Source: a virus. Taken from it: a stretch of 64,000 bases of DNA. This document shows positions 1,529 to 43,449 of the stretch, piece by piece (position 1 is the stretch's first letter; every line of letters begins with the position of its first letter). A program made the translations under genes and the position numbers. The notes below the pieces were generated by a model. That model saw only the letters and a program-made list of their open reading frames with translations. It did not search any database and had not been told where the DNA came from. The stretch spans positions 17,107 through 81,106 of the IMG/VR virus record IMGVR_UViG_3300018414_000007; one strand, 5' to 3'.

Positions 1529-1546
1529 TAAGAAATAATAATTTTA

Positions 1547-1578
1547 CAAAATTAATCAATTTATTTTGAATTTCCAAA
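1547..1578 (-). promoter_or_regulatory. Bacteroides-type promoter upstream of portal gene
   Basis: Read on the minus strand: TTTG (1578-1575), 20 bp spacer, TAATTTTG (1554-1547), matching the Bacteroides -33/-7 consensus TTTG/TAnnTTTG. The predicted +1 is near 1543, giving a 14-nt leader before the portal ATG. It sits in the TerL-portal gap, which suggests separate late expression of the structural genes. Confidence 0.5.
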
Positions 1579-3783
1579 TTAATAATATTGAGGCTTTCTA
1601 TTTACAAATAATTGTCTAGTAAAAAAGTTATCAACTTCATCAACATCTAACTGAGGTTCTTCTACTTGGATCTTGTGCATTTCCAAATCTTGCATCATTA
1701 CAAGCATAAAAGCAATGACTCTATCAAAGTTACCATCTTTATTATAACCTATTAATTCTTTTAATAGAGGTATACTAGGTATCTTAGTTAATTGTAATTT
1801 CCCTGGTTCTAATTCAGTCTTTAACCAATCTCTAGTCATAATCTCTATAGCATCTTTTATTTGGTTAGTCATGTGAGTACCAAATACTCTATCTACTTTA
1901 GTATTAGGAGATATAGACTTTATAATAGCAGGTTGTCTACAAAGTAAATGTAAACTATTCTTTGTTTCAAAATAAGCTTTAATTCCTGGAGTTTGATTTT
2001 CATACAATGCTTGTGCATTATAATACTCTAGTAATCTTCTACACTGTTCATAGAAATCACTAGCAAATTCTGGTCTACCAGTGTATTCAGCTACAAGTGT
2101 ATGATAAGTTTGGTCTGCATTAACAAATCTTTTATATATCATTATAGAACCCATAGAAGAAGAGCTATCAGCTTGATCTTGGTCTATACTATCTATACCA
2201 GCTATATATGTACCATATTGAGGATTCTCAATAGGTTGTTCCCATATTACTACAGCTCCTCTAGGATCTTTAGAATACTTAGTAGGATAGTCACAAGGAG
2301 TTAAATCATGGTCTACTTTAAACATAGCTTTACCATTTTCATCTCTTTGCATCCAACCAGTAGCACCTAATTCTTTTAATCTTCTATTAGATTCTATATT
2401 AGCTAGATGTTCTTTTAGTTCAGCTGTAGGGAATATATTACCTTGTTGTACTAAAAATGCTTCAGATGGAACTACTGGTCTATTCTGTAACTCATCATAT
2501 AGAGGTTGTTTACTTCTACCATTAGCTAGTTTAACTCTTTCATTCTCTAAGAACTTTCTAGCTTGAACTTCATCAGTAACTCCTTCATCATTCTTAAACT
2601 GATTAAGAGTTTTCCAAGCAGGTACAAAATAACCTATCTTACCTTTGTTTTCATACTCATCTTCAAATACTAAACAATCATAAGGTTCAGGATGGTAGAA
2701 CACTTCTTTAACAGCTTCAGTACTACCTCCAGCCATATCACCACCTGTACCAAACATCCATATAGTACCAAACTTTTCTGAACCATTCATAGTACATTCT
2801 TTTAATTGACCTAGAGCTAATAAGAGATTACCCATAAAACCAATCTCTTCTAAAGCTACAAATCCTGGTCTTGTTCCATTGGCAGCCATAGGATTGTCTG
2901 CAAATGACCTATGATGAATCATAGACTTCGACCCTTTCTTTACCCAGTTATTACCTATCTTTTGATCATACTCAGCTACAACAGTTTTACCAGATTCCCA
3001 AGAGCCTGAGAATTTCTTTAAGAAAGGAGCAGGATAATATCTATCACCTAACTCCATTCCACCAGTAAGATTCTCTAGTCCTAGTCTAACTTTCTTAAGT
3101 AAACCAGAACTATATTTAGTATCAATAGCTCCTACTAGAGTTTCACTCTTAGCTTCTTTTAAATCACTATAAGAGAATACTCCATCATGTAAGAAGTTCC
3201 AAGCTATAAGATTAGCTGCAAAGAAAGATTTACCACCACCTCTAGCTTCTATATCAACAACATTCTTAGCATTGTTATACATAAGAGGTCTACCAAGATC
3301 TTCTTTATGATTCCATCTTAAGTAGTCTCTAGCTTCAACATAATTAACTGGAACATATCTTTTAGGTAAACTACGAGCTTCTCCTAATCTAATATCATCC
3401 CAAGGTTCTATCTGAATTTGTTTACATTCAAACTCATCATAGAATAACATTGTATCTTTTAATGACCTATCACAAGTATTGTAATGGTCATATTCAAAAC
3501 CAGAGAAACCTCTAGCTTCCATAAAAAGATATCCTTTCTCCCATTCTAAATCTCTGAGGAAAGGATGATCTATTACCTTATTTTTACTATTCTTAGTTTT
3601 ATTTAATTCTATCTTCCAATGGTTAATGTATTGATATACAGGTCCAGGCATATACTTACCACCAGACCAATAACCTTCAATACATCTCCTTCTCTCCTCT
3701 TTCCAGAAAGTTCTATAGTCTAAACTGAGAGGATTTAACTTCTCAATCTTTTGTTTGAAATTAGAATTAGATACATAACTCAT
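1579..3783 (-). CDS. terL: Terminase large subunit (TerL)
   Basis: The 734-residue protein is the packaging motor: an N-terminal ATPase that translocates DNA into the procapsid through the portal and a C-terminal RNase H-like nuclease that cuts concatemers. Visible motifs are a Walker A-like RGGGKS at about 181-186, a hydrophobic Walker B strand with two acidic residues (FVALEE, 308-313), and a nuclease strand beginning AGIDSIDQD with Asp531. The length is normal for phage TerL. The upstream gene's stop overlaps the start (TAATG). No separate small terminase is recognised nearby, which is common in crAss-like phages. Confidence 0.95.
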   Translation of the reverse strand: MSYVSNSNFKQKIEKLNPLSLDYRTFWKEERRRCIEGYWSGGKYMPGPVYQYINHWKIELNKTKNSKNKVIDHPFLRDLEWEKGYLFMEARGFSGFEYDHYNTCDRSLKDTMLFYDEFECKQIQIEPWDDIRLGEARSLPKRYVPVNYVEARDYLRWNHKEDLGRPLMYNNAKNVVDIEARGGGKSFFAANLIAWNFLHDGVFSYSDLKEAKSETLVGAIDTKYSSGLLKKVRLGLENLTGGMELGDRYYPAPFLKKFSGSWESGKTVVAEYDQKIGNNWVKKGSKSMIHHRSFADNPMAANGTRPGFVALEEIGFMGNLLLALGQLKECTMNGSEKFGTIWMFGTGGDMAGGSTEAVKEVFYHPEPYDCLVFEDEYENKGKIGYFVPAWKTLNQFKNDEGVTDEVQARKFLENERVKLANGRSKQPLYDELQNRPVVPSEAFLVQQGNIFPTAELKEHLANIESNRRLKELGATGWMQRDENGKAMFKVDHDLTPCDYPTKYSKDPRGAVVIWEQPIENPQYGTYIAGIDSIDQDQADSSSSMGSIMIYKRFVNADQTYHTLVAEYTGRPEFASDFYEQCRRLLEYYNAQALYENQTPGIKAYFETKNSLHLLCRQPAIIKSISPNTKVDRVFGTHMTNQIKDAIEIMTRDWLKTELEPGKLQLTKIPSIPLLKELIGYNKDGNFDRVIAFMLVMMQDLEMHKIQVEEPQLDVDEVDNFFTRQLFVNRKPQYY

Positions 3784-3983
3784 TACTGTTTAAAATAACC
3801 TGATGGTACATGGAGTGTTGTGACTATTTCTATATTACTATCATCTTCTTTATAGTACATACTAAGGTCTCCTTTTTCAGTATCATCTATAAACTCTGTT
3901 TTAAAATTAGTAGGCATCTTATAATTAATATCTTCCTTTATAATTTGTACAAAGTCTTCTGGTAATTTTAGTTCTTTTTCCAT
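3783..3983 (-). CDS. Small conserved hypothetical protein upstream of TerL
   Basis: A 66-residue acidic protein starting MEKELKLPEDF. An upstream in-frame ATG at 4037 would overlap the preceding gene by 53 nt, so the ATG at 3983, one base after that gene's TAA, is preferred. The stop overlaps the TerL start. No domain is recognised. Its place in the packaging operon suggests a packaging or assembly accessory role, which is inference. Confidence 0.7.
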   Translation of the reverse strand: MEKELKLPEDFVQIIKEDINYKMPTNFKTEFIDDTEKGDLSMYYKEDDSNIEIVTTLHVPSGYFKQ

Positions 3984-3984
3984 A

Positions 3985-4515
3985 TTATATATCTTCACTA
4001 TCTGCAAGTGACAACTCATGTCCACCTTTAGTTGCACCTACATTCTTTTCTTTACTTAATTCTTCTTGTATAATTTTAAATGTCTTAAATATCTTTTCAG
4101 TACCTACAGACATTTTATCTATCTTATCAAAGTTATCTAAATCATATTCAGTATCTCTGAGGAACTTAGTTCTTTTATCTAGAGTTTCTAACCACTGTCT
4201 TAAGTGTCTTTTAGCTGGAGTATCTACAAGTTTCATAATCATTTCTATAGCAGGATTAATCATCTTAAGATTCTTATTATAGAAATCTTTATCTTTAAGA
4301 TAATCTTTACCTACTATAGAAACTCTTTCTTCTAGTTCTAAATTATAGAATCTAGAATCTAAATCAAAGCAAGCTACTATAAACCACATAACATCAGATG
4401 ACTTAGTTTTAAACTCTTTCTGTATAGTCTTAAACTCTTCAATCTTTTTAAACTCTGGATACATTTCCCAGAAGTTATACTCAGGATCTATAATATTAAA
4501 TACTTTGTCTGTCAT
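3985..4515 (-). CDS. Conserved hypothetical protein of the packaging operon
   Basis: The 176-residue protein is rich in aromatic and charged residues and looks mostly helical, with a serine/glycine-rich tail. It has no signal peptide or membrane segment, and I recognise no named domain. Lying between an IHF-like gene and TerL, it resembles the unnamed conserved genes next to terminase in crAss-like phages. A structural or small-terminase-like role is possible but cannot be shown here. Its start overlaps the end of the upstream gene by 20 nt, as expected for translational coupling. Confidence 0.75.
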   Translation of the reverse strand: MTDKVFNIIDPEYNFWEMYPEFKKIEEFKTIQKEFKTKSSDVMWFIVACFDLDSRFYNLELEERVSIVGKDYLKDKDFYNKNLKMINPAIEMIMKLVDTPAKRHLRQWLETLDKRTKFLRDTEYDLDNFDKIDKMSVGTEKIFKTFKIIQEELSKEKNVGATKGGHELSLADSEDI

Positions 4516-4711
4516 TCTTATTCTTTATGTAGTTTTCAACTCTTCTAGGTTTGACACCAAATACACCTAAATGATGTAATCTAATTGCTTGAAATTCTCC
4601 TTGCTCCATAGTATCTCTAACAAATTCAAATTGAGATCTAATCACCCTTTCAATTACTTCTTCATCTAGATTATATTTACTCGCTAGAACTGTTAGTATC
4701 TTCTGATTCAT
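4496..4711 (-). CDS. IHF/HU-like DNA-bending protein
   Basis: The 71-residue protein has an N-terminal helical pair and then a segment with the HU/IHF pattern: VRDTMEQGEFQAIRLHHLG, then a Gly-Val-Phe strand and basic KPRR. This corresponds to the family's GExVxLxGFGxF...R pattern. Crass-like phages are known to encode IHF-like proteins. The likely role is bending DNA during packaging, replication or transcription. It is shorter than bacterial IHF (about 90-100 residues), so the DNA-binding arm may be reduced. The call is moderate and would need a profile search. Confidence 0.6.
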   Translation of the reverse strand: MNQKILTVLASKYNLDEEVIERVIRSQFEFVRDTMEQGEFQAIRLHHLGVFGVKPRRVENYIKNKNDRQSI

Positions 4712-4982
4712 TTTGATGTCTTTTAATATAATCTTTTAAATCAGTAAATGAAGTCTCTCCAATATGACTAATCATAAATGTAACTCTATTACCTTCTGAA
4801 TCTACACAACTCTTCCAGATTCTTTTATAATCTATTCCTTTAGTAATTGCACTATATCCTAAGTATAAGTAATCTGTTTTACTTAATGGATAAATAAGTG
4901 TATCATATTTTTTAGCATAAGGAGATTTCTTTTTTGCTGGTTTAAATCCAATGCTAATTATTTGTTCTCTTGTAATGGACAT
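4677..4982 (-). CDS. Conserved hypothetical protein
   Basis: The 101-residue basic protein contains KPAKKKSPYAKKYDTLIYPL near its N-terminus and a Ser/Glu-rich C-terminus. No domain is recognised. Its 3' end overlaps the start of the IHF-like gene by 35 nt in another frame, so the two are probably co-translated. It belongs to the leftward operon. Confidence 0.7.
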   Translation of the reverse strand: MSITREQIISIGFKPAKKKSPYAKKYDTLIYPLSKTDYLYLGYSAITKGIDYKRIWKSCVDSEGNRVTFMISHIGETSFTDLKDYIKRHQNESEDTNSSSE

Positions 4983-16423: not shown

Positions 16424-16852
16424 ATGTATGAAATTAAAGACTTTACTAATCTCTTTACCTCTACTAAGCTATCTGAACTATTAATATTAGCAATTCTAGT
16501 ATTTTTAGGTGTTGCTGCAAGAATTAGTATAGATATTGAGATTAGTAAAAAGTCTTTTAAACAGATTAAATTTTTTCCTAGATATTTCTTAGCATTAGTA
16601 TTATCTTATGTTATTGAATTATATTTAGTGGAACATGAAGATGCAAGAAAATATTACGCAGAAATTATAATATTATTTTGTATCTTTGTAAATGATCTTA
16701 TTAAGTTTGTACTTAATAACACTGGTAGAATATTTATTTATATTTTAAGTGCCTTTACTAAAGGTGTATTTGATTTAAAGAAGTTTCTTGCTAAATCTGA
16801 GAATAATGGAAACAAACCAATAAATAAAGAATTTGATAATAAAGAAGAATAA
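16424..16852 (+). CDS. Holin-like membrane protein
   Basis: The 142-residue protein has three or four membrane helices (SELLILAILVFLGVAARI, then YFLALVLSYVIELYL, then IIILFCIFVNDLIKFVL) and a polar tail (NNGNKPINKEFDNKEE). Size and topology fit phage holins, which open the inner membrane so that endolysin can escape. It has its own host-type promoter and is followed directly by a second membrane protein. It is far from the lysozyme gene, so the holin call is tentative. Confidence 0.5.
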   Translation: MYEIKDFTNLFTSTKLSELLILAILVFLGVAARISIDIEISKKSFKQIKFFPRYFLALVLSYVIELYLVEHEDARKYYAEIIILFCIFVNDLIKFVLNNTGRIFIYILSAFTKGVFDLKKFLAKSENNGNKPINKEFDNKEE

Positions 16853-17298
16853 TGTATTATGCAGGACAATTAATTGATATTTCTCTATGGTCTTGGTTAC
16901 TTCTTATAATGATTAAGAGAGTAATATGTAGAGGCTTTGATATAAGATTAAATACAATAGTAACAGCTTTTAAACAACATAGCTTTATATCTATTACAAG
17001 AGAAAAACTTCACAATCTAATCAAGAATCATCATTACTATAGTGAAATATTAATATTAATTGCATCAGCATTAATGGTAATAAGTATAAGTAACGACTTA
17101 TATTTATACAGTCATAATCTTATAGATAAGATACAAACACTAGATATATTTAAACAATTAGTATTTAGTAAACTTATTAGTATAGGATTAATTTTTAAGT
17201 TTAGACGATCTCAGCCTAAACTATTCAGTAACATAAAGGAGGAAATCAAAGATGCATACAATAAAATTGTTTCTCCCTTTTCAGAAGCAGTTCATTGA
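16852..17298 (+). CDS. Membrane protein paired with the holin-like gene
   Basis: The 148-residue protein has hydrophobic segments near the N-terminus (ISLWSWLLLIMIKRVI) and centre (ILILIASALMVISISNDLYLY), and a polar C-terminal region. Its ATG overlaps the preceding TAA. Pairing suggests a holin/antiholin or two-component membrane system; inference. Part of a new gene with a strong SD lies inside its 3' end. Confidence 0.6.
   Translation: MYYAGQLIDISLWSWLLLIMIKRVICRGFDIRLNTIVTAFKQHSFISITREKLHNLIKNHHYYSEILILIASALMVISISNDLYLYSHNLIDKIQTLDIFKQLVFSKLISIGLIFKFRRSQPKLFSNIKEEIKDAYNKIVSPFSEAVH
17236..17242 (+). promoter_or_regulatory. Strong Shine-Dalgarno site
   Basis: AAGGAGG, nine bases before the ATG at 17252. 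Strong SDs are rare in Bacteroidota-type translation, so this marks the small ORF as probably well translated. Confidence 0.55.
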
Positions 17299-17404
17299 CC
17301 TTGGAGAAGGTAAAGATTTAGAAGCAACTGCAATACAATCACAGAAAAAACTTTTAGAACAAAATATATTATCTTGGATAATATACATACGTAATGAGGA
17401 TTAA
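17252..17404 (+). CDS. Small hypothetical protein with strong SD
   Basis: A 50-residue ORF, MHTIKLFLPFQKQFIDLGEG onward, overlapping the preceding gene by 47 nt. It has a strong SD and is followed directly by a terminator, so it closes this operon. No domain recognised. Confidence 0.55.
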   Translation: MHTIKLFLPFQKQFIDLGEGKDLEATAIQSQKKLLEQNILSWIIYIRNED

Positions 17405-17418
17405 TAGTCCTCTTTTTT
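17396..17418 (+). terminator. Rho-independent terminator
   Basis: GAGGA (17396-17400) pairs with TCCTC (17408-17412) and is followed by a T6 run. It overlaps the stop codon of the preceding small ORF and ends the unit driven by the promoter at 16372-16403. Confidence 0.7.
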
Positions 17419-17429
17419 ATTTTATATAT

Positions 17430-17564
17430 ATGAGTAAATCAAGTAGAAAAAGAAAAGCACAGAGGAGATTAGACTCTAAGATGGGTAATTATGATAAATT
17501 TGGAGGTAAGTCTCCTTATAGTGGTCATAAATTAAATAAACCAGGAAGTAAACAAATTAAATAG
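17430..17564 (+). CDS. Small highly basic protein
   Basis: A 44-residue ORF starting MSKSSRKRKAQRRLDSKMG with a Gly/Lys-rich end. Probably nucleic-acid binding from its charge. The next gene starts two bases after its stop. No domain recognised. Confidence 0.6.
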   Translation: MSKSSRKRKAQRRLDSKMGNYDKFGGKSPYSGHKLNKPGSKQIK

Positions 17565-17566
17565 AA

Positions 17567-18091
17567 ATGGGATCAACAATTTTAAATAATATAACAGACA
17601 CACCTTATTATATAAATTGGTTAAAAGATCAAGATTTTGTACAAAATTTCCATAAAACAATTATAAATCAAAATACATACCAATCACAAATAAATAATAC
17701 TATGGCAAAAGCAGTAAAAGAAGAAGGAGAACCCGCTCCTTCAGAAGAAAATAAAGGTAAAAAATGTTTTAGAGATTTAAAAATAGGTGATGAATATTAC
17801 CAAACAATACCTACTACTGGTATGTTATCAGTTATTAAAGTAACTTCTTTAGTTAAGTATGATGATAAAAGAGTTGTAGTTAATGGTAGTCATACAGTTA
17901 ATTTTGAGAATACACTACACAACGCAACTACTTTTATAGTATATTTAGATAAAGATGAAGCTGAATTTTCTATTATAGAAGGTTTAGAAAAGAAATTAGA
18001 ACAAGAGGTAAAAGATCTTGTGATAAGAGAACAATCTTTAAAAGAAAAAACTCAAAGACTTGAAGAATTAAAAAATAAATTTAAAAAATAA
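17567..18091 (+). CDS. Hypothetical protein with C-terminal coiled coil
   Basis: The 174-residue protein has an Asn/Tyr-rich N-terminus, a beta-rich middle (IGDEYYQTIPTTGMLSVIKV) and a long C-terminal coiled coil (EKKLEQEVKDLVIREQSLKE). A second in-frame ATG at 17702 (MAKAVKEEGEPAP) would remove the N-terminal 45 residues. No domain recognised. Confidence 0.7.
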   Translation: MGSTILNNITDTPYYINWLKDQDFVQNFHKTIINQNTYQSQINNTMAKAVKEEGEPAPSEENKGKKCFRDLKIGDEYYQTIPTTGMLSVIKVTSLVKYDDKRVVVNGSHTVNFENTLHNATTFIVYLDKDEAEFSIIEGLEKKLEQEVKDLVIREQSLKEKTQRLEELKNKFKK

Positions 18092-18114
18092 AAACAAATA
18101 AAACTTTCATTAAC

Positions 18115-18438
18115 ATGGAAAAAAATAATAACTCTATATTCTTCTTCTATCCAGATGCAGAAGAAGGTCAACCAAGAAAAGTAATTGCTGGAGTATTTAA
18201 CTCTAATACTAATACTCTTATAATTGCTAAATCAGAATGTTCTCCTAAAGACAACTTCTGTAAAGATAAAGGTAGGAAGATTGCATTAGGTAGAGCCTTA
18301 TGTAATAGAGAAATTAAAGTTAAAGAGTATAAAGGTAAACAATCTAAAACAAATAAAAATTTGTTACCAAGAATCTTTAACTTAGAATCTGCTGAAAAAC
18401 CACAACAAAAATTCATTCAAATAGCAAAATCACTTTAA
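18115..18438 (+). CDS. Hypothetical basic protein
   Basis: The 107-residue protein has a beta-rich N-terminus (SIFFFYPDAEEGQPRKVIAG) and a Lys-rich middle with KAL-like basic patches. No domain recognised. It is one base from the next gene. Confidence 0.65.
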   Translation: MEKNNNSIFFFYPDAEEGQPRKVIAGVFNSNTNTLIIAKSECSPKDNFCKDKGRKIALGRALCNREIKVKEYKGKQSKTNKNLLPRIFNLESAEKPQQKFIQIAKSL

Positions 18439-18439
18439 C

Positions 18440-19159
18440 ATGGCTAGGCTACAAGATATAGAAAAAATAATAGATAACTACGAAGAGAAGTTAAGAAAAG
18501 AAAAGCCTTTAAAAGCGTATAGTCATAGTAACAATTCTCTTGAATTAGAATCTGTACCTTATAATAAAACAGATTTAAAAAGCTTTATCATAGACTTCTT
18601 TAAAGACAATCATGGATACAATCCTAAACCTTGTTTTGCTAGAACTATTCAAACTAGAGAAGGGAAAGAAGAAACAACTAGTAGAGGACAAAGAAGAACT
18701 GCTGGAGATATATTCAGGTTTGCATTAAGATATTATTCTGATGATATTACTTTATATGATGTTATGGAAATATTATATGATTTAGTACAAAATGAATATA
18801 AATTTCAGACTCCTAACAGTAATAGTGATTATGCTACTCTTTATATGAATATTTGTAGTACTATTTATAGAAGGGTATTTAATTTATCACCTGGTTATAA
18901 AGGAAAATATAAATTTGATTCTAGTAATCAATATTATACTGATACTAGCACTAGTTCTATTAGAAATGAATTTCATATATTTGGATCTGATTACACTTTA
19001 CTTTTTGATACTAAAGAAGGTAAGGAATTAGTTTCAAGTAAACGTAATGAAATTGTTATTCCTGCTAATATGACTAGTGAAGAGCTAGATAGGTTAGTTA
19101 TGGAAAAACTAAAAAAATTGAAATCTCCAATAAAATTGGATAAAGTAGGTTATTTCTAA
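18440..19159 (+). CDS. Conserved hypothetical protein upstream of DNA polymerase
   Basis: The 239-residue protein has a helical N-terminus, an aromatic central domain (TAGDIFRFALRYYSDDITLY) and a basic C-terminal helix. Location directly before DNA polymerase suggests a replication accessory factor; inference only. Confidence 0.7.
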   Translation: MARLQDIEKIIDNYEEKLRKEKPLKAYSHSNNSLELESVPYNKTDLKSFIIDFFKDNHGYNPKPCFARTIQTREGKEETTSRGQRRTAGDIFRFALRYYSDDITLYDVMEILYDLVQNEYKFQTPNSNSDYATLYMNICSTIYRRVFNLSPGYKGKYKFDSSNQYYTDTSTSSIRNEFHIFGSDYTLLFDTKEGKELVSSKRNEIVIPANMTSEELDRLVMEKLKKLKSPIKLDKVGYF

Positions 19160-19160
19160 A

Positions 19161-19195
19161 CTATCTCCTCCAATAAAGCGTTAAAAAGGAGGTAG
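19161..19195 (+). promoter_or_regulatory. SD-sequestering hairpin before DNA polymerase
   Basis: CTATCTCC (19161-19168) pairs with GGAGGTAG (19188-19195), 8 bp with one U-G, around a 19-nt loop. The 3' arm contains the SD (AAGGAGG, 19186-19192) placed six bases before the ATA at 19199. Folded, the SD is hidden. Confidence 0.55.
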
Positions 19196-19198
19196 ATT

Positions 19199-21085
19199 AT
19201 AGAAAGTAAAATAAATTTTGTAGGTCCAGAGGATTTATACAAAGAGGAAGGTAATCAACTATATGATCTAAAATCTATAGAAGATTGCCTTTCTTGGTTA
19301 AAGACATTATCATCAGTATCTTTAGATACAGAAACAGAAGGATTTTTTAATTTTAAGAATAAAATTATAATGCTTCAGTTATCTGACGGTAAAGAAGTTT
19401 GGGTGATAGATGTAAGAGGAAAAGAATACTATAATAAGTTAAAACCTGTATTAGAAAGTATTTTAGTATTAGGTCAAAATTTAAAGTTTGATTACAAATT
19501 CTTAAAATTTGAAGGAATAGAACTAAATAATATATATGATACATTCTTAGCTGAATGTGCTTTAACTAACGGTCTTACTGAAAGGCAATTAGGATTAGGA
19601 GCTATTGCTAAGAAGTATTTAGATGTTAATTTAGATAAATCTGTTAGAAATCAATTTATAGGATTAGAAGGTAAACCCTTTACATTCAAACAAATTATAT
19701 ATGGTGCAGAAGATGTACTGTATTTACATAAAATAAGAGAATTACAATTACAGAAAGCAGCAGAGTTAGATCTAGTAGATTATATACTATTAGAATGTCA
19801 AGCTTGTCTTGCAATCAGTGATATTGAATATAATGGTCTTGGATTTAATCCTCAAGCTTGGTTAGATTTAGCTAAAAAGGTAAATAGTAATATACCTCAG
19901 CTAGAATTAGAATTAGATCAGTTTATATTATCTGAACCAAAGAAGTATTATAAGTTTATTAACCAAACTCCTCAATTAGATATATTTGGAGGTGAAAGTA
20001 GAAGAGTATTAGTTGAATGGAGTAGTCCTACACAAATGCTTAAGCTACTTAAAGTAGTCTTAAATGATCCAAATTTAGAAAAGACTGAGGAAAAAGAAAT
20101 TGCTAAATATCAATTTGATTATCCATTTATTAGTAAATTCATAGATTATAAGAAAGAAGCTAAACTTGCTTCTACTTATGGTGAAGATTTTATTAAGTAT
20201 GTTAATCCTGTTACAGGTAGAATCCATAGTGATTTTTGGCAGATTCTAGTTACTAGTAGAGTTAGTTCTAATAATCCTAATTTACAAAACCTTCCAGCTA
20301 AAAATGATTATTTAAATTGTTTTGTAGCAGATAAAGGTAAGAAAATAATAGGTATAGATTACAAAGGACAAGAAGCAAGAATAGCTGCTTGTTTTAGTAA
20401 AGAAGCTACTTGGTTAGATGCTATTAAAGATGATAAAGACTTACATGGTGAAGTTGCTAAGCTTATGTTTAATATTACAGATGCTGAAGTAAGAAATAAA
20501 CCAGATTTTCTTAGAGGTAAATCTTATAGAGATATAGCTAAGAATATTAACTTTATGGCTTTATTTGGTGGTACTAAATGGAAGTTAAGTAAAATGCTTT
20601 TGTGTAGCTTAGATGAAGCTCAGGATCTATTAGACAGATACTTTTCTGCAACTAAGAACTTACAAGTATATTTAAATAAATGTGCTTCTTATGGCCTTAA
20701 AAGAGGTTATATAAGAAGTGGTAAACCATATAGTGCTATTAGATGGTTTGAGAATTGGAAAGAAAATTTAGATATTTATAAAGACTCTAAAATTATTGGA
20801 GAAATTACAAGAAACTGTTTTAATAGTCCAATTCAATCTACTGCAGCTATTACTACTAAATTAGCATTAATTAAACTAAGAGATTATATAAAAGATAATT
20901 CTTTGTCTAACAAAGTAAAGATTATTCATGTAGTTCATGATGCAATATATACTGAAGTAGATGATGATATTTGTAATGAATTTGCAGAAATTCAATCAAA
21001 TATAATGAAAAAGGCTGGTAAAGTATTCATACAAGATTTAATTATGGATACAGATATAACCATAGATATATATTGGAAAAAATAA
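19199..21085 (+). CDS. DNA polymerase, family A, with 3'-5' exonuclease domain
   Basis: The 628-residue enzyme replicates the phage genome. The exonuclease motif SLDTETEG (Asp43, Glu45) lies upstream of the only plausible in-frame ATG (19370), so translation must start earlier. No ATG, GTG or TTG is in frame before the TAG at 19193. ATA at 19199, six bases after AAGGAGG, is the best start. Polymerase motifs: A, IGIDYKGQEARIAA (Asp387); B, RDIAKNINFMALFGG; C, VVHDAIYTEVDDD (Asp581). In motif C the usual VHDE is VHDA. The non-AUG start with a hidden SD suggests tight translational control. Confidence 0.93.
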   Translation: MESKINFVGPEDLYKEEGNQLYDLKSIEDCLSWLKTLSSVSLDTETEGFFNFKNKIIMLQLSDGKEVWVIDVRGKEYYNKLKPVLESILVLGQNLKFDYKFLKFEGIELNNIYDTFLAECALTNGLTERQLGLGAIAKKYLDVNLDKSVRNQFIGLEGKPFTFKQIIYGAEDVLYLHKIRELQLQKAAELDLVDYILLECQACLAISDIEYNGLGFNPQAWLDLAKKVNSNIPQLELELDQFILSEPKKYYKFINQTPQLDIFGGESRRVLVEWSSPTQMLKLLKVVLNDPNLEKTEEKEIAKYQFDYPFISKFIDYKKEAKLASTYGEDFIKYVNPVTGRIHSDFWQILVTSRVSSNNPNLQNLPAKNDYLNCFVADKGKKIIGIDYKGQEARIAACFSKEATWLDAIKDDKDLHGEVAKLMFNITDAEVRNKPDFLRGKSYRDIAKNINFMALFGGTKWKLSKMLLCSLDEAQDLLDRYFSATKNLQVYLNKCASYGLKRGYIRSGKPYSAIRWFENWKENLDIYKDSKIIGEITRNCFNSPIQSTAAITTKLALIKLRDYIKDNSLSNKVKIIHVVHDAIYTEVDDDICNEFAEIQSNIMKKAGKVFIQDLIMDTDITIDIYWKK

Positions 21086-21103: not shown

Positions 21104-22747
21104 ATGCAAATAAGAAATAAAAAAAGAAAGGCATTAGAAGCAGAAATACAAAGAGAAAAAGACCCCAACTTTAACCCTGTAGAACATATAGTAGTAAACT
21201 CATTAGAGTATATTTTTGGTAAAGATCCTTCTGAATGGGGGATTTTATGTAAACCAATTGAAACTGTAGTTTCATATATGTGGGAAGAAAAGAAAAGAAA
21301 GCCTTTACATAAAAGGTTAAAACCTAAAAAGAATTTTCCTACTAATAGTCCTTCTACTAGTTTTGAACCAGTAAGCGTAACTTTTAGTTCAGGAACATCT
21401 ACAATAATATCTTCAACACCTAGTTGGGAATTAACAGAATCTTCTGATCAAGAAGAATCAATTGTAGATATTGAATTTGATGGAGAAGAATCTACTTCTA
21501 TTACTGATCATGGTGTAATTACAGCTACTGATGCACAAAAATTTAATTACTATACTCATGATGCTAAGTTGTCAAATCTTAATCTTGGAGAATTACAAGA
21601 GTATATAAATATATTATATAAGTATATTAATAAAGCTAACCAAAGAATAGAGCATTATAGTAATATAATGTTAACTAGTCCTAATCCTGCAATTAATGAA
21701 TTAAGAAACAGTTCAATTTCAAATAGAGACGAACTTCTTAATAAATTAAATCTTATTAAAATCTATATAAGTAATTTTAAAGAAAGTGTTGTTAAACAAC
21801 CATTAGAAGAGATAAATAAAAAGGAATCTTTTAATGATAAGATTAAACAGGGATTTAGATCTTTTTATTCAGCTACACTTGGATATCCTACTGTTATAAA
21901 GGGTTATATAATCAATGATAAAATATTTACTAATAATAGTGAATTAGCTTTATATGCAAGTACTAATAAAATACTTTGGGATCTTACAAAAATGATTTTA
22001 AGGGTTTCAAGATTCAATTATGAAACAAATGAAATTGAAACTAAAACTAAAATTGTTTCATTTAAACCTTTAAGTAAAGTTAAAGAAAGTTTAATACTTT
22101 CAGTACTACCTTTATTAGTAGATTTTAAAATCTGTTCATTTAAAAATAGTAACAATTTCTTTAATGATAAGATAGATAGAGAAAAGTTTCTTTATACTAA
22201 AACTCCATTTTGGAAAGTTAAAACAGTTAAATCCTTAATTGGTAAAAACAGATTAAGTAATTCCGTAGTTTCTATTGAAAATCCAGATAAAGGAGATGAA
22301 ATTTACTTTTTATTAGGTGATTGTAAAGTAGAAAATAAAGAACTTTGTGGTTATAGTATACCAATGGATAAGACTATAACTATAAATTCTATAGTAAAAG
22401 TAAAGGATAGTAAAATATCTAAATATAATTTAAAACAAGTAACAAATACAGAGGCTGAAGTTATCTCTATTAAACCAAATTCTTCTAGTAAAAAGATATC
22501 TAAGAATTCTAATAATCATAGATTGGATATTATAACTATTAGAAATAGATTTAAAGAGATGAAAGTCTATGCACAAGATCTAAAATTTATTAAAAACAAA
22601 TCAATTAAAACAAATGACAGCAGTATTAAAAAAGAAAGTGGTAATAAAGAGCCTTACCACGGAATCTCCAAAGACTGGTTTGAAAGTACAATCCAAAATA
22701 TCTACCAAAGTGAGTACATCCAATACACATCCAGTCCAAACTTCTAA
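21104..22747 (+). CDS. Large hypothetical protein
   Basis: The 547-residue protein has a basic N-terminus, a Ser/Thr-rich low-complexity acidic stretch near residues 85-150, a helical region, and a beta-rich C-terminal half. No domain recognised. Its last 134 nt overlap the ATP-grasp gene in another frame. The overlap could reflect a diverged C-terminus or a frameshift; both frames look coding. It may belong to the amidoligase cluster that follows. Confidence 0.65.
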   Translation: MQIRNKKRKALEAEIQREKDPNFNPVEHIVVNSLEYIFGKDPSEWGILCKPIETVVSYMWEEKKRKPLHKRLKPKKNFPTNSPSTSFEPVSVTFSSGTSTIISSTPSWELTESSDQEESIVDIEFDGEESTSITDHGVITATDAQKFNYYTHDAKLSNLNLGELQEYINILYKYINKANQRIEHYSNIMLTSPNPAINELRNSSISNRDELLNKLNLIKIYISNFKESVVKQPLEEINKKESFNDKIKQGFRSFYSATLGYPTVIKGYIINDKIFTNNSELALYASTNKILWDLTKMILRVSRFNYETNEIETKTKIVSFKPLSKVKESLILSVLPLLVDFKICSFKNSNNFFNDKIDREKFLYTKTPFWKVKTVKSLIGKNRLSNSVVSIENPDKGDEIYFLLGDCKVENKELCGYSIPMDKTITINSIVKVKDSKISKYNLKQVTNTEAEVISIKPNSSSKKISKNSNNHRLDIITIRNRFKEMKVYAQDLKFIKNKSIKTNDSSIKKESGNKEPYHGISKDWFESTIQNIYQSEYIQYTSSPNF

Positions 22748-23558
22748 AATTCCTACTTATCGTCCACAAGTAAGAAGTAGACATCCTTCACATAATGGAT
22801 TAAGGACATTATTAGCTAAATTACCTTTTAAATCTTTAATTAGATTTGGAAGTACTACCGAAGTAAATGATGGTATAAAAAGAGTAGAACTTAATTCTCC
22901 TGAAGCTATTAGAAAAAGTAGTAATAAACTACTTATGAAACAAAGCTTCTCTGAAGGTAATGTTAAAACAGCAGATTGGACTAATCAAGTTGCTAATGTA
23001 CCTGCAATTACAGAAAACTGGAAATATAAGTGTGTAATCAAAAAGCATTTTGGTAGTAGAGGTGAAGGTAATACTTTAGTATCTACTCAAAAGGAGTTTG
23101 ATTTGTTTATGAAGGGTAAAAGTGCTTCTGAATATATATTTGAGAGATTCTATAATTATGATAGAGAATACAGACTTCATGTAAATGAAGATGGTTGTTA
23201 TTATACTTGTAGAAAAGCATTAAAATCAGATACTCCAGAAAGCTCTAAATGGTTTAAAAATGATAGTAATTGTGTTTGGTATTTAGAAACTAATCCAAGC
23301 TTTGATAAACCAGTAAATTGGGATAGTGTTGTTAGTCAGAGTGTTAAAGCTCTTAAAGCAGTAGGATTAGACTTTGGAGCAGTTGATTTGAGAATTCAAT
23401 CAGCTAAAGATTCAAAAGGTAGAGTTAGGGAAGATCCTGACTTTATTGTAATTGAAATTAATAGTGCTCCAAGTTTGAATGATAGTGAAAGTATTGTATT
23501 TGCTAAATACTTAGAAGTACTTCCTACCATGTTAAAGAAAAAGTTTTTAAAAAGTTAA
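22614..23558 (+). CDS. ATP-grasp ligase (amidoligase cluster)
   Basis: The 314-residue protein has ATP-grasp hallmarks: a strand with VIKKHFGSRGEGN (phosphate-binding loop), FERFYNYDREYRLHV, FGAVDLRI and the metal-binding DFIVIEINSAPSL. ATP-grasp enzymes activate a carboxylate as acyl-phosphate and join it to an amine. The first 60 residues are basic and disordered. It begins a run of amidoligase-type genes. The start follows an A-rich leader; the 134-nt overlap upstream is odd but plausible. Confidence 0.85.
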   Translation: MTAVLKKKVVIKSLTTESPKTGLKVQSKISTKVSTSNTHPVQTSKIPTYRPQVRSRHPSHNGLRTLLAKLPFKSLIRFGSTTEVNDGIKRVELNSPEAIRKSSNKLLMKQSFSEGNVKTADWTNQVANVPAITENWKYKCVIKKHFGSRGEGNTLVSTQKEFDLFMKGKSASEYIFERFYNYDREYRLHVNEDGCYYTCRKALKSDTPESSKWFKNDSNCVWYLETNPSFDKPVNWDSVVSQSVKALKAVGLDFGAVDLRIQSAKDSKGRVREDPDFIVIEINSAPSLNDSESIVFAKYLEVLPTMLKKKFLKS

Positions 23559-23570: not shown

Positions 23571-24383
23571 ATGAATAAACATAAAAATTTTAAAGTATTT
23601 GTAGTAGGATTTAATACTGGCTACGCTAGGTGGATACAAGGTGAACTTGCTAAAAATATGAAAGAGGCTGATGTTGTTCTGTTTACAGGGGGAGAAGATA
23701 TTTCTCCCTCTTTATACGGAGAAACAGCTGGAAGACATACATTTCCCTATGATAGACCAAATGGTCAATTACCTTTAAGAGATGAATTTGAGGTAAGGAA
23801 TTATAAAGAAGCGTTAGAGTTAGGTAAACCTATGTGGGGTACTTGTAGAGGTGCTCAATTGTTATGTGCTTTAGCTGGTGGTAAATTAGTACAGGATATG
23901 AGTCATCATAGTTCTCATAAATTGTATTTCTATGATAATGAGTATGAGTGTGTAAGTAATACTTTACATCACCAAATGCAATATCCTTACACTATGAAAG
24001 ATGGTGAAGACTATAAAATCTTAGCTCATGCTATAGGTCAGAGCCCTTACTTCTTAGATGGTAATGATAAACCTCTTATTATGCCTGAAACAGTGAAAAA
24101 ACAAGGATATGCTAAACCTCTTATTAAAGAACCAGAGTTTGTATATTATCCTAAAATTAAATCTTTAGGTATACAAGGACATCCTGAAATGATGTCTACT
24201 AATAGTGATATGGTTTTAGTATGTCATGCATTTTTAAATCTTTTGATAGAGGATAAGTTAAATGATGCTCTCCTTTTAAATATTCCTGTTAAATCTATTA
24301 TAAGTAGAGCTTGGGATTTTAATTTTACAAAAGAAGAAAATGCATTATTAAATCAAATTAAAGAAGTCCCTATCGAGGTATAA
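23571..24383 (+). CDS. Class I glutamine amidotransferase / peptidase C26-like protein
   Basis: The 270-residue protein has a nucleophile elbow GTCRGAQLLCALAGGKLVQD with Cys in the right place, an early VVLFTGGEDISPSLYGE, and a late SLGIQGHPEM carrying the His and Glu of the triad. The closest type is gamma-glutamyl-gamma-aminobutyrate or gamma-glutamyl hydrolase (C26). In this cluster it may hydrolyse or supply glutamine-derived groups for the ligases. Confidence 0.85.
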   Translation: MNKHKNFKVFVVGFNTGYARWIQGELAKNMKEADVVLFTGGEDISPSLYGETAGRHTFPYDRPNGQLPLRDEFEVRNYKEALELGKPMWGTCRGAQLLCALAGGKLVQDMSHHSSHKLYFYDNEYECVSNTLHHQMQYPYTMKDGEDYKILAHAIGQSPYFLDGNDKPLIMPETVKKQGYAKPLIKEPEFVYYPKIKSLGIQGHPEMMSTNSDMVLVCHAFLNLLIEDKLNDALLLNIPVKSIISRAWDFNFTKEENALLNQIKEVPIEV

Positions 24384-25029: not shown

Positions 25030-25869
25030 ATGAAAATAAAAATTGATAATTGGAAAATAGGTTCTGATCCAGAAGTTTTCCTTCATAATAAAAGTACAAA
25101 AGAAGTAGTATCTGCAATTCCCTTTATTCCGGGAGATAAACATGATCCATACCAAATACCTACATTACCAGAGGGTCATATGATTCAAACTGATAATATA
25201 ATGGTAGAGTATTGTTTACCTCCTACAAGTGATTATAGGGCTTTAATTAAGTCTTTTAGAGACTGTATAGCATATACTAATAATACTATACCAAGTGAAT
25301 TAGAAGTGGTTGTTAAAGCTTCTGCAAATGTAAGTGAACAATACTTACAAGATGAACAAGCTAAAAGATTTGGATGTGATCCAGATTTTAATGCTTGGAC
25401 AGATGATTTAAACAATCCTCCTAATAGTGATACTAATCTTAGAACTTGTGGTGGTCATATCCATATTGGCTATGATAATCCAGACTATGAACTTTCAAAG
25501 AAATTAATTAAAGCGTTAGATATATTTTTAGGTGTTCCATCTATTCTTTTAGATCCTGATAAAGATAGAAAGAAAATGTATGGTAAAGCTGGTGCACATA
25601 GGTTAAAAACTTATGGTGTAGAATATAGAGGTTTATCTAATTTCTGGTTGGCAGAAGAAGAATTAACTCAGTTAGTATTTAATGGAGTTAGAATGGCCAT
25701 TGCTATGATTAATAGTTCTGAATCTTACTTAGATAAGATGAGTGATACATTACAGTTAAAGATTCAAACTTGTATTAATACAGGAGACGAAGAGTTAGCT
25801 CAACAACTTGTACATCAACTTAGTTTATCTAGTTTATTGGCTGGTTCTACTAAAGTATATATTGACTAA
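25030..25869 (+). CDS. Amidoligase, COOH-NH2 ligase type 2 (phiEco32-like)
   Basis: The 279-residue protein has KIGSDPEVFLHN at the start and CGGHIHIGYDNPDYELSKKL centrally, matching phage phiEco32-type amidoligases with a glutamine-synthetase-like fold. Arg and Glu residues in YGVEYRGLSNFW probably line the active site. It should form an amide from a carboxylate and an amine with ATP. A strong stem with a terminator-like 3' half follows the gene. Confidence 0.85.
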   Translation: MKIKIDNWKIGSDPEVFLHNKSTKEVVSAIPFIPGDKHDPYQIPTLPEGHMIQTDNIMVEYCLPPTSDYRALIKSFRDCIAYTNNTIPSELEVVVKASANVSEQYLQDEQAKRFGCDPDFNAWTDDLNNPPNSDTNLRTCGGHIHIGYDNPDYELSKKLIKALDIFLGVPSILLDPDKDRKKMYGKAGAHRLKTYGVEYRGLSNFWLAEEELTQLVFNGVRMAIAMINSSESYLDKMSDTLQLKIQTCINTGDEELAQQLVHQLSLSSLLAGSTKVYID

Positions 25870-26020: not shown

Positions 26021-26551
26021 ATGAAAATATGTAAAAAATGTAATGTTGAAAAATCTCTAGGAGAGTTTCACAAAGATAAAAGAACTAAGGATGGATTATA
26101 TAAATGGTGTAAATCTTGTAAAAAAGAGTATGATTTAATATACAGAAAAACAGATAAAATTCAAAATTTATATAAGTCTAAAGAGTATAGAAATAGAAAA
26201 AAGGAATATAAAAAATGGAGAGATATGACTGATCCAAGAGAACAACTTTTAATATCTGCTAAAGCTAGGGCTAAAAAGTATAATATACCTTTTAATTTAA
26301 CTATAGATGATATAGAATTAAGAGCTTATTGCCCTTTATTGGAAATTAAATTAGAAAGAAAACAATATGGAAAGGTGGGTTCATTTAATCCAAATTCCCC
26401 TTCTTTAGATAGAATAATTCCTAGTTTAGGTTATGTAAAAGGAAATATAGAGGTAATTTCAATGAAAGCAAATATAATGAAAAATAACGCAAGTATAGAA
26501 GAATTAAAAACATTTGCGAATAATATATTAAGGTGGTATGATTATGATTAA
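26021..26551 (+). CDS. HNH homing endonuclease 1
   Basis: The 176-residue protein has an N-terminal Cys4 finger (MKICKKCNVEKSLGEF, CKSCK) and a C-terminal HNH core: CPLLEIKLE, then SPSLDRIIPSLGYVKGNIEV, then SMKANIMKNNAS. Free-standing homing endonucleases cut intronless or uninserted alleles and spread by repair. It sits between the orphaned start and the body of a class II glutaminase, flanked by 11-bp imperfect repeats. A ten-residue-longer start falls inside the promoter, so the ATG at 26021 is used. Its N-terminal finger resembles that of the 38438 HNH. Confidence 0.88.
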   Translation: MKICKKCNVEKSLGEFHKDKRTKDGLYKWCKSCKKEYDLIYRKTDKIQNLYKSKEYRNRKKEYKKWRDMTDPREQLLISAKARAKKYNIPFNLTIDDIELRAYCPLLEIKLERKQYGKVGSFNPNSPSLDRIIPSLGYVKGNIEVISMKANIMKNNASIEELKTFANNILRWYDYD

Positions 26552-28142
26552 AATAATATTAATATTAGCATTTATAAATTATTTGCTATACTTCCTTAAT
26601 GGAAGAAAAAAGACTAATTTAGCTCTTTGTGGCTTAATTGGTTACTCTGGACAAGAGAACTATAATATAGACAAAATAAGGTTTCTAATGCTATGGAATA
26701 GTGTAGAAAGAGGTAAAGATGCTACAGGCATATATACCCCCTCAACAGGACTTATAAAAGATAATGAACCTGCTGGTAAGTTTCTATTTCAAAGTCATTT
26801 TAAAAAATTAGTTGATGATAATCAATTAATAGCTCATGTAAGAGCTAAAACAATTGGAGCAAATTTAGTTAAAAACGCTCATCCATTTGATGAAGAGAAT
26901 ATTGTATTAGCTCATAATGGTACTTTAGTTGACTATGTAGCGTTAGCATCCAAATATGATATGAAAGCTCTTAATTGGGATGTAGATTCTCAAGTATTAT
27001 CTTTTGGTATTAATAGAGCATTTAATGCTGAAACTACTTTAGATAACTTAAATATTGAAACTTTAAGTGAATATAAAGGTGCTGCTGCTTTACTATTTTA
27101 TAGTAAAAACTTAGATATGATATTTGTATTTAAGGATAAAGAGAGACCTTTATTTTATGGGTATGATCTTGATGGAGGAATGTATATGTCTTCTATTGAA
27201 GAGTCATTAAAAGCTGCAGGATTATTTGAAATTAAAGCGTTTACTGATAATACTTTGTATGCTATTGATCATGGTGAAATTGTAAAGACTTGGGTTTATA
27301 AAACCTATGCTGAACTTAATAAAACAGCTTATGTTGGTAAAGTTCGAGGGAGGGAACCAGGTCAGAGATTCCCAAAGTTAAAAAAAGGGGAAAGAGGAAT
27401 AGACATCACAAATGGAACCACTAAAGCATATTGGTTCTTAGATATGTGGCTATATTCTAATACCCAAACATGGAATCATCAAAGAGGAATCTATGGTAAG
27501 TTTGCTGAAATGAAAACTGGAAGGTTTTATTTAGTAACTGGATTCTATGCTGAAGATATAATGTTTGTTCAGGTAAAAGATGAGAATGGAAATGATGGAA
27601 TGGCAGCCTTAAGTTCATTTGATATAGATAGGTGTATTCCTCAACCTGAACAGTTATTTAGAATAACGGCTCCCCTTGTTGCTAAAAAGACAAAACAAAA
27701 ACTTTGGGAAAAAGGACAAATAGTTGAATTGATGAGTTATGATATAACAGAAGGATCAGTTTCTTTCTGGTCTGATTCAGAAAATGCAGAATACGAAATT
27801 CCTATGAAGTGTTGTAAACCATTAACACCTCAAGAAGTTATAGATTTCTGCTTAGAAACAGAAGATCCTAAAGATAAAGGAACTAAAGAACCATTACTTA
27901 TTCAACCCGCTCCTGAACCATCACCTTTTATAGAAAATACACCTGAGCCTGAACCTTTAGGAGATTTCATATCAACTCCAGTATTCTTGGGAGCTTTGGA
28001 ATTAATTGAAAGTGGATTAGGTAAATTAGAAGAAAAGTATGATGAAAATGGAGATTTAACCCCAGAAATTAATGCTATACGTATGGACATCACAAATTGC
28101 AAAGATAAGACATATCTTGACAACTTACTGGTACATAATTAA
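26538..28142 (+). CDS. Class II glutamine amidotransferase, 5' end displaced by HNH insertion
   Basis: The Ntn-hydrolase domain is clear: CGLIGYSGQENYN, RGKDATGIYTPSTG, IAHVRAKTIGAN, LAHNGTLVDY. Cys31 should be the N-terminal nucleophile, but here 30 residues precede it, including a hydrophobic stretch (IKIILILAFINYLLYFL). Intact relatives start MC. Either a leader is removed, an unusual bypass or RNA event joins MCGLI upstream, or the enzyme is inactive. The C-terminal half (about residues 280-534) is unknown with a Pro-rich linker near residue 460. It overlaps the HNH gene by 14 nt. Confidence 0.85.
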   Translation: MIMIKIILILAFINYLLYFLNGRKKTNLALCGLIGYSGQENYNIDKIRFLMLWNSVERGKDATGIYTPSTGLIKDNEPAGKFLFQSHFKKLVDDNQLIAHVRAKTIGANLVKNAHPFDEENIVLAHNGTLVDYVALASKYDMKALNWDVDSQVLSFGINRAFNAETTLDNLNIETLSEYKGAAALLFYSKNLDMIFVFKDKERPLFYGYDLDGGMYMSSIEESLKAAGLFEIKAFTDNTLYAIDHGEIVKTWVYKTYAELNKTAYVGKVRGREPGQRFPKLKKGERGIDITNGTTKAYWFLDMWLYSNTQTWNHQRGIYGKFAEMKTGRFYLVTGFYAEDIMFVQVKDENGNDGMAALSSFDIDRCIPQPEQLFRITAPLVAKKTKQKLWEKGQIVELMSYDITEGSVSFWSDSENAEYEIPMKCCKPLTPQEVIDFCLETEDPKDKGTKEPLLIQPAPEPSPFIENTPEPEPLGDFISTPVFLGALELIESGLGKLEEKYDENGDLTPEINAIRMDITNCKDKTYLDNLLVHN

Positions 28143-28152
28143 AGAATATATA

Positions 28153-29805
28153 ATGTTAGAAGAGATAAAAACAAAAGAAGAATTAAAAAACAAAAAAGAT
28201 TTTCTTTTAAAGAACCCATTTCATCCTAATAAGTTTATATACGCCGAAGAAGGAGAATCTCCTAAAGAGATTGTAATAATTAATGGAAGAGGATATGATG
28301 TAGATAAAAGTAATTTATCAGAAGATTTTTACCATCCTGGGTATTTCTTTTTGGCTGGAACAGGAGCAATGCTTGCGTTTGTTACTGCTACTAAAGCTAG
28401 AAGAGTGTTTGATCCAGAAAACCCTGAAACCTGGTGTCAAATAGTTTCTGAGTACAAACCTTCTAAAGAAAGGTATAAGAACGTTGAAACATCTGATTAT
28501 GAAACTTATAATGCTTCTCTTAAAAAGATTATTTCACAAGCTTATGGTGAATTAAAACCAGTATCTAATACAGAAGAGGAGTTATTAAACTTAAGTTTTG
28601 TAAAAGGAACTGTTAATCCTGATTTTTGGTTTCCTTTACAAGAAAAACAACATTTAGACAAGATGTTACCTTATAAAAAGTTTGAAAATATATATCACAA
28701 GGTTGATATAAATGATCTTGAGCATCAAATGAGATCTCAAGGATACCCAGAAGAAGAAATAAAGAAAAGAATAACAGAAGCTTTACAAAAGAATATTTTG
28801 TATGGTGTTGACTCTTTAACTTACACAGCTTTTGAAGGAATAAGATTTACATTTGGTGTTGAAATTGAGACTTGTATTGGAAGACTTGATGATGATCAAA
28901 TTAAATTTTTAAATGTTAAAGCAGTTCATGATGGTTCTCTAAGAGATAAAAATGGTAATACTCCTGGTGGAGAATATGTTACTGGTGTATTAACTGGAGA
29001 TGCTGGATTGACTCAATTAAGTGACTTATGTAGAGCTTTGTCTTCTAAATGTAGAGTAAATGCTCAGTGTGGAGTTCACGTTCATGCAGGAAGTTTAAAT
29101 TGGAATAGAGAAGATATTGTTTATTCTTATATTTTAGCAGAAATGTTAGAAGATGAGTTATTTATGATGCTTCCTAAATCAAGAAGAAGTAATACTTACT
29201 GTAGAAGATTAACTGAACTTACTTTAGATAAAGTTCCTTTGTTAAAAACAGCAGTTAGATCTGAATATAATATTCTTATAGATACAATCTATAATGATAT
29301 TTTGAAAGAAGTAACTCAAGTTAAAAATAAAGGTAAAATATATTCTGGAGTAGAAGAAGGAGTAGAAGAACCAATAATTGCTAGTGGGATTTATAACAGA
29401 GAAAAGCAACATCCAAATGGAGCTAAATGTGGTTATGATAAATCTGCACAAAGATATTGTTGGTTAAACTATGTTACTCTTATGTATAATACTAAAGGGG
29501 GTAAAAATAGTAACACTTTAGAGATTAGAAGTCATAGTGCTACAATGAATTTCAAAAAGATAAAGAATTGGATTAAGATTTTCTTTGCTTTTTGTAAGTA
29601 TGTAGAAACTAGTAAATCTAAGATTAGAAAAGGAAATGTAACTCTTGCTCATGTAATTAAAAAGGCATATCCTAAAACTGGAGATAAACTTCTTAAGTAT
29701 ATTGAAGAAAGAAAACAAGTGTTTAATTCTCATGATGAGTCTGTAGATTATGTAGAAATCTCAGAAGAAAGAAAGACTATAAAGGAGATAGTAGCAGCAG
29801 AATAA
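28153..29805 (+). CDS. Amidoligase (Amidoligase_2 family)
   Basis: The 550-residue protein has a 230-residue N-terminal region of unknown function and then the amidoligase core: FTFGVEIETCIGR, VKAVHDGSLRD, GGEYVTGVLTGDAGLTQL, CGVHVHAGSL and LEIRSHSATMNFKK. The family has a glutamine-synthetase-like fold and forms amide bonds in secondary metabolism or peptide tagging. An in-frame ATG at 28072 overlaps the preceding gene; 28153 is preferred. Its stop overlaps the next ATG (TAATG). Confidence 0.85.
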   Translation: MLEEIKTKEELKNKKDFLLKNPFHPNKFIYAEEGESPKEIVIINGRGYDVDKSNLSEDFYHPGYFFLAGTGAMLAFVTATKARRVFDPENPETWCQIVSEYKPSKERYKNVETSDYETYNASLKKIISQAYGELKPVSNTEEELLNLSFVKGTVNPDFWFPLQEKQHLDKMLPYKKFENIYHKVDINDLEHQMRSQGYPEEEIKKRITEALQKNILYGVDSLTYTAFEGIRFTFGVEIETCIGRLDDDQIKFLNVKAVHDGSLRDKNGNTPGGEYVTGVLTGDAGLTQLSDLCRALSSKCRVNAQCGVHVHAGSLNWNREDIVYSYILAEMLEDELFMMLPKSRRSNTYCRRLTELTLDKVPLLKTAVRSEYNILIDTIYNDILKEVTQVKNKGKIYSGVEEGVEEPIIASGIYNREKQHPNGAKCGYDKSAQRYCWLNYVTLMYNTKGGKNSNTLEIRSHSATMNFKKIKNWIKIFFAFCKYVETSKSKIRKGNVTLAHVIKKAYPKTGDKLLKYIEERKQVFNSHDESVDYVEISEERKTIKEIVAAE

Positions 29806-43425: not shown

Positions 43426-43449
43426 GGGAGGTCAAAAGCCTCCCTTTTT
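43426..43449 (+). terminator. Rho-independent terminator
   Basis: GGGAGG (43426-43431) pairs with CCTCCC (43439-43444) around TCAAAAG and is followed by T5. It ends the replication operon after the AP2 gene. Confidence 0.85.

Follow-up and report, generated by a model that had tools for sequence, protein, structure and literature searches.

A putative near-cognate start codon and a predicted occluded Shine-Dalgarno sequence at the DNA polymerase gene of a probable crAss-like phage

The polymerase gene and its genomic context

The window analyzed here, a stretch of 64,000 nucleotides, accounts for the larger part of a virus record of 81,106 bases (IMG/VR record IMGVR_UViG_3300018414_000007). 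The open frame at 19196-21085 on its forward strand encodes a family A DNA polymerase with a 3'-5' exonuclease, of 628 aa if translated from a candidate ATA start (19199-21085) or 629 aa if translated from the ATT at 19196. The protein contains the Pfam domains DNA_pol_A (3e-57) and DNA_pol_A_exo1 (9e-23), matches phrog_17 (1e-92), and is closest to the polymerases of crAss-like phages such as cr111_1 and crAss001; its alignment with the polymerase of the relative L001 shows 60% identity, and the exonuclease residues D44, T45 and E46 are invariant in an alignment of six sequences. This combination of a polymerase A domain and a 3'-5' exonuclease with the invariant D-T-E places the protein among the crAss-like family A DNA polymerases. 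What the window polymerase lacks is a usual trait that does not define the domain, namely a canonical start codon immediately ahead of the first strand (I-x-F-[IV]-G or similar), and its domain identity is not in doubt. The terminase is closest, among the matches listed, to that of Cellulophaga phage phi14:2, followed by those of Flavobacterium phages. Given these closest matches of the terminase and the polymerase, the phage is probably crAss-like, with a host among the Bacteroidota. In two relatives, the polymerase genes appear to be split by inserted sequence (cr116_1, locus L007, positions 1962-4937; and locus L019, positions 1332-3791).

The polymerase gene is preceded, in the same frame and on the same strand, by an open reading frame for 239 aa (18440-19159) that ends with a TAA at 19157-19159 and is the proposed partner in the translational coupling discussed below. 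No family match, phage-record match or IMG/VR relative of this open reading frame was detected, and its single-sequence structural model, with a mean pLDDT of 44, was set aside; the open reading frame is presumed to be translated on the basis of its open length. Two genes downstream of the polymerase lies a gene for a RimK-like ATP-grasp protein (22614-23558; phrog_2599, 6e-36; NCBIfam rimK_fam, 9e-10, well below the cut-off of that model). Together with neighboring glutamine amidotransferase and amidoligase genes, it forms a run (22614-23558, 23571-24383, 25030-25869, 26538-28142 and 28072-29805) that possibly constitutes a peptide- or protein-modifying set.

The polymerase frame has no canonical start ahead of the exonuclease motif

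The frame of the polymerase is closed upstream by a TAG at 19193-19195, and the in-frame codons between this stop and the exonuclease I motif (D-T-E codons, 19325-19333) include near-cognate starts only, the nearest of which are ATT 19196 and ATA 19199. The first in-frame ATG, GTG or TTG is the ATG at 19370-19372, which lies 3' of the D-T-E codons; initiation there would lose the exonuclease motif, and a gene caller that accepts no starts other than ATG, GTG and TTG would begin the polymerase at this codon and delete the motif. All ATG, GTG and TTG triplets within 19160-19333 (19218, 19263, 19285 and 19294) are out of the polymerase frame. An earlier note on this DNA had described the motif as preceding the only in-frame ATG; the order is as described, with the qualification that ATG 19370 is the first in-frame ATG rather than the only one, and the coordinates and the codon scan agree with its statement that no in-frame ATG, GTG or TTG lies between TAG 19193 and the motif.

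An upstream frame joined by frameshifting, which the same note had named as a possible refutation, was looked for and ruled out: both other forward frames contain many stops across 19060-19340, so that a frameshift product is impossible. An alternative genetic code in which TAG specifies an amino acid extends the frame just to the TAA at 19157, without gaining an ATG, GTG or TTG. The absence of a canonical start is real; neither frameshifting nor recoding accounts for it, and splicing finds no support. The polymerase shares this impossibility of a canonical in-frame start with the class of near-cognate starts that are marked by extended Shine-Dalgarno (SD) sequences.

A strong Shine-Dalgarno sequence marks the putative start

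The sequence AAGGAGG at 19186-19192 lies within a run of 9 nt that is complementary to the 16S rRNA tail, with a pairing energy (dG) of -13.2 kcal/mol computed with a generic tail that may not be that of the host; it is the strongest SD among the starts scored in the window. The spacer between AAGGAGG and ATA (19199-19201) is 6 nt, as the earlier note had it, and that between AAGGAGG and ATT (19196-19198) is 3 nt. A spacer of 6 is the more ordinary of the two, and ATA is the favored start. Four other SD-led starts of the same phage (the ribonucleotide reductase (RNR) and helicase genes, 41423 and 42340) have a spacing of 3 in the same register, and ATT 19196 therefore stays a serious candidate. 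The extended SD, with its 9-nt run and a spacing of 6 (ATA) or 3 (ATT), is likewise characteristic of the near-cognate extended-SD class.

The AAGGAGG motif by itself occurs in the window about as often as chance predicts (6 copies against 5.65 expected), and it is notable at the polymerase through its position, the absent start and the fold described below rather than through its occurrence. Taken together, the anatomy of the locus and the comparison with relatives make a near-cognate polymerase start placed by a strong SD a well supported prediction. The proposal of a non-AUG start in the earlier note holds to this extent, with ATT as a second candidate beside the ATA that it had put forward.

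Polymerase starts in related phages

For comparison, we used the best 80 of at least 474 related loci along with 6 records from a phage collection. These 86 relatives include near-duplicates and, with the window, comprise 76 distinct 5' regions; one of them (L052) ends before the start region, leaving 85 that can be scored, and the start of another (L072) was read by eye as ATG. A canonical start is present at the expected place in all 85: 81 ATG, 2 GTG (L066 and L006) and 2 TTG (L029 and L032). Many of these polymerases begin with M-I-Y-F-[IV]-G or similar, and the window polymerase, if translated from ATA, begins with (M)ESKINFVG, which aligns with this MIYF[IV]G sequence. Sufficient sequence ahead of the polymerase is available for 72 distinct relatives, and in none of these is the gene preceded by an SD with dG of -7 or below. 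The comparison of relatives, for which the earlier note had called, sets the window apart by its putative near-cognate start, which is shared by no relative examined, the nearest being about 60% identical. No near-identical second copy of the locus was found among viral contigs or genome contigs.

Shine-Dalgarno sequences and non-ATG starts across the genome

We surveyed the genes of at least 100 aa for SDs with dG of -7 or below, under a rule that prefers an ATG within 25 codons. In the window, 10 of the 47 genes have such an SD, compared with 2 when a mock stretch further upstream is scored; the polymerase entered the survey through ATG 19370, and its own SD is not among the 10. Strong SDs precede none of the 12 genes in the rest of the record, none of 77 in the relative G001, 1 of 33 in G002 and none of 36 in G003 (scored without its last 2,833 bases). 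Across the 80 related loci (the best 80 of at least 474, near-duplicates included), they precede 10 of 611 genes, fewer than the 22 in the mock stretch. In a motif test from which identical upstream regions were removed, the count is 16 of 513 for the relatives (mock 23) versus 10 of 47 for the window (mock 2; Fisher p 1.3e-5). Within the window, none of the 22 genes located before 24 kb has the SD motif, as against 8 of 23 in the 24-47 kb part and 2 of 2 beyond; G is enriched on the coding strand of the 24-47 kb part, a bias for which the mock counts allow. A single open reading frame of 5005 aa on the reverse strand (46941-61958), with partial matches to virion structural proteins, has an SD before its ATG.

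By the survey rule, four genes begin with codons other than ATG: RNR (31645, GTG), the helicase (35912, TTG), the primase (38974, TTG) and the gene at 42015 (GTG). An SD accompanies 3 of these 4 starts versus 7 of the 43 ATG starts. In addition, the RecT-like gene at 37049 begins either with a GTG preceded by AAGGAG or with an ATG six codons later. Among the homologs, an ATG lies ahead of the match for RNR in two relative records, for RecT in one, and for the primase in all 9 loci L094-L102 (L103, a partial match, was left unscored); for the helicase, an ATG is present in L089, L090, L117 and L118 and near the start of the match in L093, and L092 is without the N-terminal part. Several of the phage's genes for replication and nucleotide metabolism thus begin with GTG or TTG, mostly with an SD, whereas their homologs in relatives mostly begin with ATG and have no SD. 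The DnaB-like helicase gene of cr111_1 looks interrupted, with parts about 0.87 kb apart (L090/L091, 65889-67832), and the helicase match in L117 (886-2508) exceeds the length required for the protein by about 0.6 kb; each of these may reflect an intron.

A predicted hairpin over the Shine-Dalgarno sequence and its modeled opening

The SD of the polymerase can fold against an anti-SD arm, CTATCTCCTCC, at 19161-19171 on the same strand, whose pairing with the SD region, in two registers, extends to 19195; its first eight bases, CTATCTCC (19161-19168), are those that the earlier note had proposed to sequester the SD. The whole hairpin spans 19153-19206, with a lower stem in which bases at the upstream stop pair with bases just past ATA. 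The segment 19150-19209 folds with -13.7 kcal/mol (z -3.2), an energy equaled by 1 of 200 shuffles, and opening of the SD costs 11.2 kcal/mol, a value that 1 in 500 flank-shuffled sequences attained. For comparison, the cost is 0.15-6.3 kcal/mol at eleven other SD-led starts of the phage, making that of the polymerase the highest among the 12 examined, and 3.0 +/- 2.0 kcal/mol for 600 random 7-mers. The SD is thus computed to be occluded, in line with the proposed sequestration. No terminator was listed at 19153-19206 in a terminator scan. The only other site in the window with a similarly occluded GGAGG is a strong CCTCC/GGAGG hairpin at 43427-43447, in the gap after a phosphoesterase gene, which is perhaps a terminator.

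The anti-SD arm begins 2 nt beyond the stop of the preceding open reading frame. A terminating ribosome, modeled as holding 19144-19168 or further unpaired, lowers the cost of opening the SD from 10.95 to 1.8-2.8 kcal/mol when its footprint reaches 19168-19174; a footprint that reaches just 19159 leaves the cost nearly unchanged (10.74), so that coupling would depend on an ordinary ribosome footprint. The usual downstream footprint of a terminating ribosome is about 10-15 nt. In the model, then, the partner of the SD is a stretch that would be masked by ribosomes terminating on the upstream gene, as in coupled gene pairs, which suggests that translation of the polymerase is coupled to that of the upstream open reading frame. 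Because the arm starts so close to the upstream stop, coupling is a more natural reading than a simple off switch. The strict control of polymerase amount through a hidden SD, as envisaged in the earlier note, is thus retained as far as the occlusion is concerned, and the position of the arm redirects it toward coupling.

The absent canonical starts, the SD, its spacing and the same-frame upstream stop are read directly from the sequence, and the hairpin and the cost of SD opening (11 kcal/mol in free RNA, about 2 with a terminating ribosome) come from computation. On these grounds we propose that the ribosome would locate a near-cognate codon, preferably ATA 19199 and possibly ATT 19196, by means of an unusually strong SD that would compensate for weak initiation. 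In free mRNA, the SD would be folded against CTATCTCC just past the upstream stop; a ribosome finishing the upstream open reading frame would cover the arm and release the SD. Polymerase output would then be proportional to that of the upstream gene and well below it, with a low yield that we infer from the weakness of the codon. We advance this explanation as a whole, a near-cognate start with a strong hidden SD freed by the ribosome of the upstream open reading frame, with moderate confidence.

Alternative explanations

The near-cognate start and the strong SD could be real and the hairpin without a regulatory role, the SD just offsetting the weak codon. Such an offset would fit the enrichment of SDs at the non-ATG starts of the phage, and plain fold energy is less special than the opening cost: 207 of 8526 segments of 60 nt in the window are as stable (top 2.4%), as is 1 of the 47 other gene starts. 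We nevertheless consider an idle hairpin unlikely, given the extreme cost of opening this particular SD among the SD-led starts and among shuffled flanks.

Beside the choice between ATA and ATT, the main doubt is that the case rests on one metagenomic record, in which a base error or a segregating mutation at 19198 or 19201 is possible. The true start could be an ATG within a textbook ribosome-binding site, altered in the record by a one-base error or a minority mutation (G to A at 19201, or G to T at 19198). A single substitution would restore an ATG at a workable spacing, and the uniformly canonical starts of the scorable relatives point the same way. However, consensus errors at one chosen base are rare, the relatives with ATG lack a strong SD, and the SDs at RNR (GTG), the helicase (TTG) and 42015 (GTG) fit an evolved habit of this phage; on balance, we judge an erroneous base to be rather improbable.

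It is still less probable that the hairpin acts as a translational operator to which a protein, such as the polymerase itself, binds. The polymerase gene of phage T4, gp43, has a translational operator hairpin at its ribosome-binding site, and the window presents the same type of gene with an RNA hairpin in the same place. However, the T4 polymerase belongs to a different polymerase family, the T4 operator is bound by protein whereas the structure in the window is known from a predicted RNA fold, and an arm at the upstream stop fits coupling better. Fusion of the polymerase to the upstream open reading frame by readthrough of TAA 19157 and TAG 19193, or splicing in of its first codons, would accord with the shared frame and with the interrupted appearance of some replication genes of relatives (the helicase of cr111_1) but can practically be set aside, considering the two different intervening stops, relatives that begin where the window frame begins without a common N-terminal extension, the lack of an Rfam intron in 16800-19600 even at E 5, and the lack of a visible upstream exon.

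Relationship to known translational systems

Near-cognate starts with extended SDs are already known. In the accessible part of a report on Staphylococcus aureus (PMC13009471), infC and ccpN (AUA) and cvfC1 (AUU) are described as such, with expression from the cvfC1, ccpN and citZ sites at about 10% of that from AUG, and up to 30% for ccpN; this reduction to near a tenth indicates the likely size of the effect at the polymerase start. The S. aureus sites and that of the phage are alike in having an AUA or AUU start marked by an extended SD. The former, however, belong to bacterial genes of an SD-using host, and the accessible text describes no SD hairpin or upstream coupling (PMC13009471), whereas here the gene is that of a phage replicative polymerase. 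In Escherichia coli, AUU starts limit the amounts of the infC and pcnB products, and IF3 acts on AUU, according to the portion consulted of PMC9410913. Discrimination by IF3 against near-cognate starts is reported there for infC and, in the consulted part of PMC5472188, for sigR; by analogy, sensitivity of the polymerase start to IF3 is plausible. No IF3 feedback loop is evident for the phage polymerase. The Streptomyces sigR (GTC)/rsrA pair likewise combines a near-cognate start with translational coupling in one operon; as far as that source describes it, the weak start there is on sigR of the coupled pair (PMC5472188), whereas in the phage it would be on the downstream gene, with the SD hidden. 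Near-cognate starts with extended SDs being known, what is new here is a phage polymerase whose SD is computed to be occluded beside an upstream stop.

Bacteroidota ribosomes and the polymerase Shine-Dalgarno sequence

Ribosomes of Bacteroidia are reported to be blind to SDs, with bS21, bS18 and bS6 hiding the 16S tail; the exception is rpsU, whose exceptionally strong SD allows ribosomes without bS21 to translate it (PMC9976891, in the part available to us). Given that the closest marker matches of the phage infect Bacteroidota, the polymerase SD may not work in the ordinary manner if this account applies. The rpsU gene of Flavobacterium johnsoniae resembles the phage polymerase in having a very strong SD where most genes have none; its pairing energy is given in that part as -14 to -21 kcal/mol (PMC9976891), compared with -13.2 by another method for the polymerase, and the phage is without a bS21 gene, none being detected in the 81,106-base record. 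The benchmark for rpsU-type genes is pairing with the 16S tail of the host beyond about -13 kcal/mol; the polymerase value was computed with different software and a generic 16S tail that may not be that of the host.

A more far-reaching scenario, which we regard as quite doubtful, is that this phage lineage moved several replication genes to weak starts (ATA, GTG, TTG) with strong SDs that would be read only by a subpopulation of ribosomes with a free 16S tail, for instance ribosomes that lack bS21 or whose bS6 has been modified by the RimK-like protein. With its amidotransferase and amidoligase neighbors, the latter protein may serve another pathway.

Implications

The contrast in SD usage between the window and its relatives offers a natural test of whether and how translation of the Bacteroidota type uses SDs. 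Searches of the literature found no report on crAss-like phages with non-AUG starts and, judging by titles and the openings of abstracts, none on their SDs in this respect; nor did they find the combination of start-codon choice with a hidden SD that the preceding gene would open. If the more speculative scenario were true, the phage would sense the state of the ribosomes through its DNA replication, and the polymerase would be the most tightly controlled of the genes concerned. If the explanation favored here is true, the phage would set the level of its replicative polymerase by the choice of start codon together with a hidden SD that is opened by translation of the preceding gene.
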